Source: a virus
Length of the DNA: 50,794 bases
IMG/VR virus record: IMGVR_UViG_3300032236_001430
Location: 1 to 50,794 of that record
Reading direction: 5' to 3' (one strand)
Part shown: one piece after another, positions 41,124 through 44,845 of the stretch
How positions within the stretch are numbered: position 1 is the first letter of the stretch
Layout: each line of letters begins with the position of its first letter
Program-made: the position numbers and the translations under genes
Notes under the pieces: model-generated
Seen by the model: only the letters and a program-made list of their open reading frames with translations
What the model was told of the DNA's origin: nothing
Databases searched by the model: none

Positions 41124-43835
41124 ATGGCACAAACTTCATATGTAATTTCTTACCACGCAAATGGTGGAACAGGATCAATGCCAAATCAAATTGGTTCTGC
41201 TGATGCTGGAAGTCAAATACAGTTAAATACAAATCAATTTACAAGAAATAATTATTTTTTTGCGGGATGGTCAACAGATCCATACGCAAACTTTAATCCA
41301 CAAGTAGGTCAATACTTTACCGATGCAGCACTTGTTACTTTAAGTGGTAATAGTGAAATTGGTCTTTATGCAATATGGGTAACGTCAGATTCTCTTCAAC
41401 TTATACATGAATTAAACTTGGGTAATCCATCAACAGATTTAGAGGGTGATGCTGATGTTACTCAAAATTTACCAACATTTAATGCAGCACTTGGTCAAAT
41501 TGCATATTACACAAACCTATATAATACATATATTGCACAGGCAAATTCAGCAACAGATGCAATTACAAAAGCACAATATACAAGTGCAGCATACTATTCT
41601 TTAAAGTCTGCAATTTATACAGATCAAAATATTATTGCATTTAATACAACAAGTGCACAACCAATTGATCCAATGAATACAAGTAACAATATTATTGGGC
41701 AGTTACAAAATGTTCAAACAGCAATTACTACAAGTTTAAGTAGAAAAGCAAATATTAATGTAACTGCAGTTAATCCAGCATCAAATATTTATTTTACTAA
41801 TTCTTCATATCAAACACAAAAGCCAACAGATGTAACTTATTATTTAAATCCAGTTGCTGTTCAAAACTTTGGTTTGCAAGTTCAAGTAAATTGGCTTGCC
41901 ATACCTGGCACAGTATATTATCAAGTTCAAATGGTGGATTCAAAAAATAAATCTTATGTATCAGCAACATTTGGATTGCAAACTAATGTGGTTGCATCAT
42001 ATCCAGGATCAGCATCAATTACAGTAACAGCATTTGGAGCGGGCGGATCAGTTATTGCTTCTCAAGCAACAACAATAAATGTAGTTGGCCCATTAAAGAC
42101 AATACCTAATTTGGTTGGGTTGTCATATTCATCAGCATATGGAACACTTAACTCTATTGGTTTATCAGTAACAACATCTACAACTACCTCAACTGATACA
42201 AAATATCAATCATATAATACAAATGGTGGATATGTATTTTCTCAAGATCCCGTACCTGGTCAATATTATGGTCTTAACTCGGTTTCTCTTTCTTTAATTA
42301 TTTATGCACAACAAACAACAACTGTTCCAAATATTGTTGGTTTAACAGTGTCAAATGCACAGGTAGCATTAGCAAACGCAAGCCTTACCTTGGGTGCTGG
42401 AACTATAGTTACAACAACCAATCAATCTATTGATAATCAAGTTATTACTCAGTCAGTACCATCTGGAACAAACGTTGTTGGCGGATCAGCAATTAATTAT
42501 TCTTATTATGTATATCAAGCAGCATCTGTATCTCCAGTAGGCGTTGCTCCAGTAGGAGTTTCTCCTGTTGGCGTATCCCCTGTTGGCGTATCTCCTGTTG
42601 GTGTATCACCAGTTGGTGTGTCTCCAGTAGGTGTTTCACCCGTTGGCGTGTCTCCTGCACCCTCAACTACACCATATGTTGCGTTAGGATATACTGATAC
42701 TGGTAATGAAATTCAATTACAGTGGAGTAATGCTGGTCAAGCACCAATTACTGCAACTAGTTTTTATGGAACCCTAGCAGGATATGTAGATACAGTTTCT
42801 GCTGGCCCTACAGGAGGAACAGCATTTTTACACTCACCTTATGGAGTAAGTGGAACAATTGGTGTTATAGTTCAAACAGATTATGGCGTTGCAACAAGTA
42901 ATCTTGTTTCTTATACAAATTATCATGGATCTCCTCCAGGCGGTGGCGGAGTTACCCCAGTTGGTGTATCACCAGTTGGTGTATCACCAGTTGGTGTGTC
43001 GCCAGTAGGTGTTTCGCCTGTGGGCGTGTCCCCAGTTGGCGTCTCACCAGTATTCCCAGTAAGTACTTTCCCAGGTGGCGTTCCAGTATCACCAGTTGGC
43101 GTGTCTCCAGTAGGTGTTTCGCCCGTAGGTGTTTCACCAGTGGGCGTTTCTCCCGTATTTCCAGTAAGTACTTTCCCAGGTAGCGTTCCAGTATCACCAG
43201 TGGGAGTATCTCCAGTGGGTGTTATTCCAGTAGGGGGTGTTGTTCCAGTATTTCCTGTAGGTGGTGTATCACCAGTTGGTGTTTCTCCAGTTGGCGTTAT
43301 CCCAGTCGGAGGTGTCTCTCCAGTTGGTGTTGTGCCAGTTGGCGGTGGTGGAGGATGTCTTGTTTATGACACTAAGGTTTCACTAGCAAATGGTGATTTT
43401 ATAAATATTCAAGATTTAACAGTTGGTCAAAAAGTTAAATCTGCCGTAATTCCTAATTATCCAAATGGTGAAAATATAGTTCTTTGGTATCCAGCCAGTG
43501 CTTGGTCATTAGATGAGCCATTCAATACAACTATTGAAGAAACTACAGTAACAAATGTAAGACACATTGTTGAAGACCATTATTATTTAATTAATGATAG
43601 AATTAAAGTAACAAAAGAGCACTTTATTTTTGCAGGTGTTGATAAGGTTTGGCAATTTGTTCAAGCAAAAGATATAAAAGTTGGAAACTTTATTTTTGGA
43701 CTAGATAATGAACAAGAAGAAATAGTTTCTGTAGAAAAATTTAATAAAATGGTTATGGTGGTAGATATTGACGTGGAACCTAATGATTTATTCTATGCAG
43801 AAAATATAGTTGTGCACAACGCTAAGGCAATTTAA
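41124..43835 (+). CDS. SPVGV-repeat, PASTA and Hint-domain tail protein, 903 aa
   Basis: Modules in order: an InlB/Flg_new-type beta-grasp repeat (3-55), a helical region (90-200), a beta domain (225-320), two PASTA domains (about 325-465), eight xPVGV pentapeptides (470-509), a beta domain (510-605), a longer Pro-Val-Gly tract of more than a dozen xPVGx units (611-740), and a Hint domain (745-899). The Hint domain has N-terminal C745, block-B T-x-x-H ('VTKEH') and a C-terminal HN ('IVVHN'), followed only by A-K-A-I. With no Cys/Ser/Thr after HN it cannot splice but could cleave or transfer itself. PASTA domains may bind cell wall. The stop overlaps the GT60-like gene (TAATG). Confidence 0.88.
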
Positions 43836-44845
43836 TGGAAAAAATATTAATAACTTTATTATCATACAGAGAAAGAGATCTTTTAATTACCGTGCAAACA
43901 GCATGGGAAAACGCAAAACATCCAGAAAGATTAATTTTTTCTATTGTTTCAGAGCAATCATCGGATGATTTACATCCAGATTTAAGTTTTATACCAGAAG
44001 ATCAGTTAATTTATAGAAAATATGATCTTTCGGAATATCGTGGCGTTATGTGGTCTAGAAATAAAACCCTTGACGTAGACATTGAATATGACTATTTTCT
44101 TCAAACTTGTGGCGGACACGTTTTGTTTGCTGAAGATTGGGATTCAAATGTAATTGATGGATATAAGCGTTCTATTAAAGCAGCAGGAACAGAAAAAGTT
44201 GTATTTGTACTTTGTGGAGTTTTATTTGAATATGATGATGATGGAAACATTATATTTGAGCAGAACCACCCATGGAAAATGGTAAATAGATATCATAAAA
44301 CACTTAATAAGGGTTATGTTCCAGGATATGGTTTTCCACATTCTCAGCCTTTTGAGGATAAAGAGCCTAAAGAAGCAGTTTACTATCAAGGAAGTTGGGT
44401 TTTTTCAACACCACAATATGTTAAAGAAGTTCCAATTGATCCAGATATGAGTTATCATGGAGAAGAAATTTATTTAACTGTTCAATCATGGTGTAGAGGA
44501 TGGAAATTTTATTCTTGCGACATTCCCTTATATGCACATAATTCTGAAAAAAAATATGCAAGAGAAGAAAAAAGTAGAATTATTACCCATAGACCATGGG
44601 CAGATAATCATAAAGAAAAATTTTGGCAACAATCAAAAGAATCAATGATTAAATTAAATCTTTTATTATCTGGTAATTTGGGTGGAATTTATGGCGGGAT
44701 TACAAGAGAGCAAGTTCTTGAATATTGCGAGTTCAGTGGTCTAGATCCAATTTTTACCATATACAACCCTAATCATGATAAAATAGATTTATATCAACAC
44801 GGAAAAAACATTAAAGAAGACCCACCAGTAAATGTGGATTTTTAA
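43835..44845 (+). CDS. GT60-like polypeptide GlcNAc-transferase, copy 2
   Basis: 336 aa, clear paralogue of 902-1936: 'KILITLLSYRERDL' (3-16), 'RKYDLSEYRGVMWSRNKTLD' (61-80), 'EVPIDPDMSYHGEEIYLTVQ', 'SWCRGW' and a long shared C-terminus ('WQQSKESMIKLNLLLSGNLGG'). The metal-site region is TCGGH (91-95) instead of DxH. The ATG overlaps the stop of the SPVGV/Hint gene, so both should be made together. Glycosylation of the Ser/Thr/Pro-rich repeats of that protein is the natural hypothesis. Regulation follows the late tail operon. Confidence 0.82.
   Translation: MEKILITLLSYRERDLLITVQTAWENAKHPERLIFSIVSEQSSDDLHPDLSFIPEDQLIYRKYDLSEYRGVMWSRNKTLDVDIEYDYFLQTCGGHVLFAEDWDSNVIDGYKRSIKAAGTEKVVFVLCGVLFEYDDDGNIIFEQNHPWKMVNRYHKTLNKGYVPGYGFPHSQPFEDKEPKEAVYYQGSWVFSTPQYVKEVPIDPDMSYHGEEIYLTVQSWCRGWKFYSCDIPLYAHNSEKKYAREEKSRIITHRPWADNHKEKFWQQSKESMIKLNLLLSGNLGGIYGGITREQVLEYCEFSGLDPIFTIYNPNHDKIDLYQHGKNIKEDPPVNVDF

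Follow-up and report, generated by a model that had tools for sequence, protein, structure and literature searches.

Many viral proteins end in a run of glycines, a Hint domain that opens with cysteine and closes with His-Asn (HN), and a further 1-22 residues, and a lysine is present in nearly every one of these short tails. The near-universal tail lysine is the new observation, and the pattern suggests that the domain may make a covalent bond to lysine. One protein of this class is encoded in the window, i.e. the whole virus record of 50,794 bases, which may itself be incomplete. From its sequence and a structure model it is read here, with a confidence slightly above even, as a modular phage tail-region protein whose C-terminal, type-A BIL-like Hint domain would act as a self-removing or sealing cap during fibre assembly.

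Protein architecture and genomic context

The reading frame of the preliminary description was confirmed, and the protein and its neighbour consist of the following parts:

41124-43835, + strand: whole gene, 903-residue tail-type protein (open reading frame; architecture also in contig L009)
41139-41282, + strand: Listeria-Bacteroides repeat domain (Flg_new), residues 6-53 (Pfam, 1.6e-6)
42099-42500, + strand: two PASTA domains, residues ~326-380 and 398-459 (Pfam, 8.8e-14, two stretches)
42531-42653, + strand: SPVGV tract 1, residues 470-510 (repeat pattern)
42954-43340, + strand: SPVGV tract 2 with FPVSTFPG inserts, residues 611-739 (repeat pattern; also in contig L010)
43341-43355, + strand: GGGGG abutting the Hint cysteine, residues 740-744 (sequence)
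43356-43820, + strand: type-A BIL-like Hint domain, C745 to N899 (profiles, alignment, structure model)
43611-43622, + strand: block B TxxH, T830-H833 (alignments A1-A3)
43815-43820, + strand: terminal His-Asn, residues 898-899 (invariant in alignments A1, A2 and A3)
43821-43832, + strand: C-terminal tail AKAI, with Lys901 as predicted acceptor amine (tails of relatives; class statistics)
43835-44845, + strand: GlcNAc-type glycosyltransferase, PF11397 (Pfam, 3.8e-20; phrog_24687, 1.3e-23)

This layout bears out what had been described from the letters of the sequence: PASTA domains with two Pro-Val-Gly tracts, a shaft and glycines ahead of the Hint domain, a complete set of Hint residues (C745, T830xxH833 and H898-N899, with the four-residue tail AKAI after them) and no splicing nucleophile, the +1 position being Ala900 and the stop coming four residues past HN. 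The pattern (PVGVS)x3 has 11 matches in the protein versus 0 in 100 shuffles. There are 21 exact SPVGV units encoded by 19 distinct nucleotide versions, and thus it is the peptide that has been kept, not the DNA. A domain-like stretch (residues ~511-603) lies between the two tracts.

How is this arrangement distributed? Viral relatives were sought by a DNA pattern for the pentapeptide, which gave two informative contigs. L009 has the same PASTA-SPVGV-Hint architecture, with 48% identity over residues 102-903, and its Hint gene is followed by a glycosyltransferase gene of the same family as that in the window and then by a portal gene. The protein of L010/L007 has SPVGV and Hint alone in common with the window protein (64% identity over residues 626-903), and its N-terminal part differs. 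As it is found on two N-termini, the SPVGV-Hint unit behaves as a module. The repeat also exists without the cap: the protein of L008 (3-1073) has SPVGV repeats and is Cys-rich at its end, yet it has no Hint. When IMG/VR was scanned with a single protein, either the Hint or the N-terminal half, no relative was confirmed. The PVGVS pattern in genome contigs gave no usable relative and no Hint in any match; these matches had an off-frame or low-complexity look (e.g. L016, antisense to a repeat protein) and were rejected. A megablast search of phage records with this region returned a ribonucleotide reductase segment only.

The gene is one of a series of tail-type genes, which belong to tail fibre, fibre assembly and virion structural protein families. 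Directly after this series come the genes for the portal and the head maturation protease and a major-head-like gene. The Hint gene overlaps with its stop the start of the glycosyltransferase gene. PF11397 GlcNAc-type glycosyltransferases adjoin SPVGV-shaft genes both in the window (43835-44845; 896-1936) and in L009 (4772-5791), and 2OG-Fe(II) oxygenases do so in L010 (6959-7576, 8692-9234) and L008 (1671-2300). These enzyme families include hydroxyproline-glycosylating and proline-hydroxylating members, and the Pro/Ser-rich SPVGV shaft may therefore be modified by its neighbours.

The Hint domain

In the whole-protein Pfam scan the Hint match was weak and below threshold (E 0.04). The profile search proposed in the preliminary description was more productive with the isolated domain (the last 166 residues), which matches phrog_38766 (1.2e-18; annotated 'virion structural protein'), TIGR01445 (1.9e-4) and Pfam Hint (6.3e-4). 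Few columns are invariant across phage proteins that share 26-34% identity, and Cys1, TxxH and HN belong to these few; in a 21-row alignment neither the block B His nor HN varies. The residue at +1 after HN is Ala in the window protein and Ile in the L009/L011 relative.

The domain was modelled with AlphaFold (AF2) from the 21-sequence alignment (A3). A predicted structure that lacked the Hint fold had been named as a ground for dismissing the assignment; the fold was predicted (pLDDT 91.4, pTM 0.86). By Foldseek, Tetrahymena BUBL1 BIL2 (6Y75, 6TMM; E 3e-10) ranks first in the PDB, next come inteins, a Clostridium thermocellum BIL (2lwy) and Hedgehog, and the best matches are Hint-superfamily proteins only. 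In BFVD, the closest viral models belong to NCTB-type proteins and to proteins of uncultured phages, including one with a PASTA annotation; we infer from their protein lengths that the A0A1C3NF- entries are NCTB proteins.

Occurrence and variants of viral Hint caps

A first set of proteins was collected from IMG/VR with the pattern GGGGGC[LFIVM]xxGTx[VI]. Among the matches listed, 25 of the 31 clusters of C-terminal Hints end 1-14 residues past HN. A second set came from an independent search by the C-terminal motif alone, with the glycine before the cysteine left unselected; C-terminal Hints again predominate, and glycine is at -1 in most of them all the same. A few class members have F, T, S, L or Q at this position. 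The cap is found on unrelated shafts, i.e. SPVGV, collagen GXY, PPVYSN, SPPAFF, PTATP and TIN. Short-period shafts before the Hint cysteine (SPPAFF, PPVYSN, ARTPFTYN, SPTPSPTAAP and TIN) were noted in L074, L049, L101, L107, L175 and L188.

In a minority of proteins the Hint lies near the N-terminus or in mid-protein with poly-Gly on both sides (GGGGG-C ... HN-GGGGKGGGG), and a tail-tip-like protein follows. By eye, the hosts of such internal Hints are gpJ-like in L055, L056, L059 and L106 and gpI-like in L039, L046, L054, L072 and L131. L045, L057, L062, L077, L147 and their relatives have C-terminal Hints with an Asn near the end, the preceding His having been lost (..ILNAR, ..IINAS, ..LNR). 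In class Hints without HN the tail lysine is mostly absent, though very few residues make up the ends of these proteins.

By sequence, the nearest cultured relatives are jumbo-phage proteins with a C-terminal Hint, most of them built on collagen-like shafts; such Hints are annotated 'tail protein, contains intein domain'. They include, with phrog_38766 as their family, proteins of Phage NCTB (BN7874_136 and _132), Erwinia phages Yoloswag (HOR66_gp102), Alexandra and Y3, Dickeya phage AD1 and Yersinia phage fHe-Yen9-02 (fHeYen902_333c). In eight further jumbo phages the peptide at the end again contains lysine (for example TDIVAKAEKK and TDMTAQAEKT). Phage NCTB also has a 154-residue stand-alone Hint-like protein ending HN-KVD (BN7874_135; L002, 9492-9953), which adjoins a Hint-bearing tail protein and is without the usual N-terminal Gly-Cys context.

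The window protein does not stand alone: L009 has its whole architecture, L010 its SPVGV-Hint module, and poly-Gly-C-Hint-HN ends are found on many viral proteins. The preliminary description named no described phage fibre with this combination. That is correct in part only, considering L009, the PASTA-annotated phage protein in BFVD and the jumbo-phage C-terminal Hints. A literature search that covered few subscription journals gave no paper in which phage Hints at the C-terminus are linked to Lys tails, and none that treats the class.

The lysine in the tail

Among the matches listed, lysine is present in 88 of the 90 distinct tails after HN, although these vary freely in sequence and in length (1-22 residues). 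At 70% identity, and again among the matches listed, 47 of 49 clusters have it versus 16.9 expected (P ~5e-21), the expectation coming from C-termini matched in length and taken from 885 further proteins on these contigs, with long open reading frames rather than curated genes as the control gene calls. Arginine occurs in 9 clusters, below the 17 expected, and residues other than lysine are not enriched. Clustering at 50% identity gives lysine in 30 of 32 (10.5 expected), and with 76 Cys+1 inteins as the reference, which show no such enrichment, 31 of 33 clusters have it against 7.4 expected, both counts being among the matches listed. The regularity emerged from the first set; the second, independently selected one served as its test, and there 15 of 16 clusters carry lysine, clusters in neither case being phylogenetically independent. 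In the second set 17 are listed, but L173 and L175 cover one protein end, L173 as a fragment, and the two are counted as one.

There are two exceptions. L135 (VNTLNAN) belongs to a family without the terminal His-Asn and was picked up through a chance HN, and L199 is also without glycine at -1. In the tails of the window protein (AKAI), L010 (AKAI) and L011 (IKQL), lysine is the sole residue in common. A fixed penultimate lysine was considered; it is found in 20 of 32 cases in the first set (among the matches listed) but in 3 of 17 clusters of the second, and the claim is therefore restricted to a lysine somewhere in the tail. An origin from Shine-Dalgarno sequences or codon choice was likewise discarded, as such motifs are rare (10 of 51 tails) and the codons are mixed (AAA 46, AAG 17).

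Why is lysine conserved, and arginine not? Given that the spacing varies, amine chemistry appears the simplest reason. A role in docking, in protection of the C-terminus or in stability could also conserve a lysine.

Proposed mechanism and alternatives

Judging from the conserved residues and the fold, C745 would turn the Gly744-Cys745 peptide bond into a thioester. Either hydrolysis or an attacking lysine amine would resolve this thioester and so detach the Hint from the shaft. The simplest attacker would be Lys901, either of the protein's own four-residue tail or of the tail of a neighbouring subunit, and an isopeptide-linked end would result; N899 would then cyclise and free the Hint. The domain would in this way be a self-removing cap in fibre assembly, and it may in addition close off the end of the shaft or crosslink it. 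The analysis shows the predicted fold, the conserved catalytic residues, glycine at -1 and the near-universal tail lysine, and from these we infer the chemistry, its order and its role in assembly. That the Hint cap is active is most likely on sequence and model, and autoprocessing of some kind is likely; attachment of the glycine end to another molecule is a real possibility, by analogy with the isopeptide bonds reported for BIL2 (PMC8616854). Autoprocessing through a glycine thioester linked to assembly is the favoured chemistry, with the tail lysine as a plausible acceptor.

The bolder proposal extends to the class: viral C-terminal Hints might move the poly-Gly end of the shaft onto the side chain of a tail lysine, in cis or between subunits, to give isopeptide-linked or crosslinked fibre ends with no other enzyme or ATP. 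We put its chance somewhat below even. A counterpoint is that with the lysine of its own tail as acceptor, the product would carry a short peptide alone, which would be of doubtful use.

The phage Hints combine the parts needed for either outcome, cleavage or a lysine bond. Cleavage by itself would make the Hint a self-removing folding or trimerisation chaperone whose glycine thioester is hydrolysed with no lysine bond formed, in a role like that of Peptidase_S74 tips, the Lys tail helping Asn cyclisation or shielding the C-terminus. This is rather unlikely on balance, yet the Hint does sit C-terminally on shaft proteins, and type-A BILs yield mostly cleavage products (PMC4031507). It leaves unexplained, however, why the tail has lysine and not arginine and why its distance from HN varies. 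The Pfam scan of the whole protein gave no match to the Peptidase_S74 intramolecular chaperone. Another alternative would retain the Hint as a stable tip, where the thioester captures an amine of the host surface in a covalent adhesion like that of thioester-domain adhesins. The C-terminal position behind the shaft, the thioester chemistry and the glycine donor would suit such a tip, but the tail lysine would have no explanation and an exposed intein-type thioester is expected to hydrolyse, which makes the idea improbable. Least probable is a splicing element in decay after loss of its C-extein. Sub-threshold Pfam scores and the missing +1 nucleophile are what such a relic would show, but no positions are better conserved among very distant phages than the catalytic residues, the arrangement is widespread and the tail lysine is clearly constrained.

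Hints that end phage structural proteins have been annotated 'intein domain' and otherwise ignored. With a lysine in nearly every tail and the other tail residues free, they become a defined class with a specific question: does a Gly-Lys isopeptide form? If so, viruses would have an ATP-free, one-protein means to cap or crosslink fibres, and small self-ligating domains, each fused to a repetitive shaft, would exist in nature in large number. If no such bond is made, the strong sequence constraint on the tail still needs another explanation.

Comparison with known systems

The window Hint was initially likened to bacterial intein-like or hedgehog-type autoprocessing. The first likeness holds and the second does not. 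Hedgehog Hog domains share the Hint fold and Cys1, but they end without Asn and have a sterol-recognition region downstream of the Hint; in the window protein HN is present and the chain ends at AKAI, so a Hog domain was rejected. Type-B BILs, defined by a missing intein-like block G (HN), were set aside because HN is there, and an ordinary splicing intein because of Ala at +1 and a stop four residues on, with no functional C-extein. The Hint of polymorphic toxins, a presumed releasing peptidase (PMC3482391), likewise stands behind a repetitive stalk; a toxin domain follows it there, whereas only four residues follow here.

Type-A BIL domains were reportedly treated by Amitai in 2003 and Dassa in 2004. 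They are reviewed in PMC4031507 and PMC7765530; they form a thioester at Cys1 and are cleaved by Asn (PMC4031507). The Hint fold of the model, Cys1 (C745), TxxH (T830-H833), H898-N899 and a +1 residue that is no nucleophile (Ala900) fit this type, and variable host proteins are a further likeness. In contrast to type-A BILs, the viral Hint stands at the extreme C-terminus of a repetitive shaft behind poly-Gly, with a Lys-bearing tail of 1-22 residues in place of a C-extein.

BIL2 from the BUBL1 locus of Tetrahymena reportedly links its N-flank to the epsilon-amine of a lysine by an isopeptide bond (PMC8616854). It is the best structural match (6Y75, 6TMM) and has a nucleophilic lysine on its C-side; GGGGG-C745 and Lys901 are the corresponding elements of the BUBL-type, isopeptide-forming arrangement here. 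BIL2 is set between two ubiquitin-like domains, unlike the phage Hint, which lies between a shaft and a tiny tail.

The C-terminal Hint proteins of jumbo phages differ from the window protein in their shafts, which are not SPVGV/PASTA, and in a Hint identity of 26-34%. They share with it the whole plan: a repetitive, often collagen-like structural protein, a C-terminal Hint, and HN with a short Lys tail.
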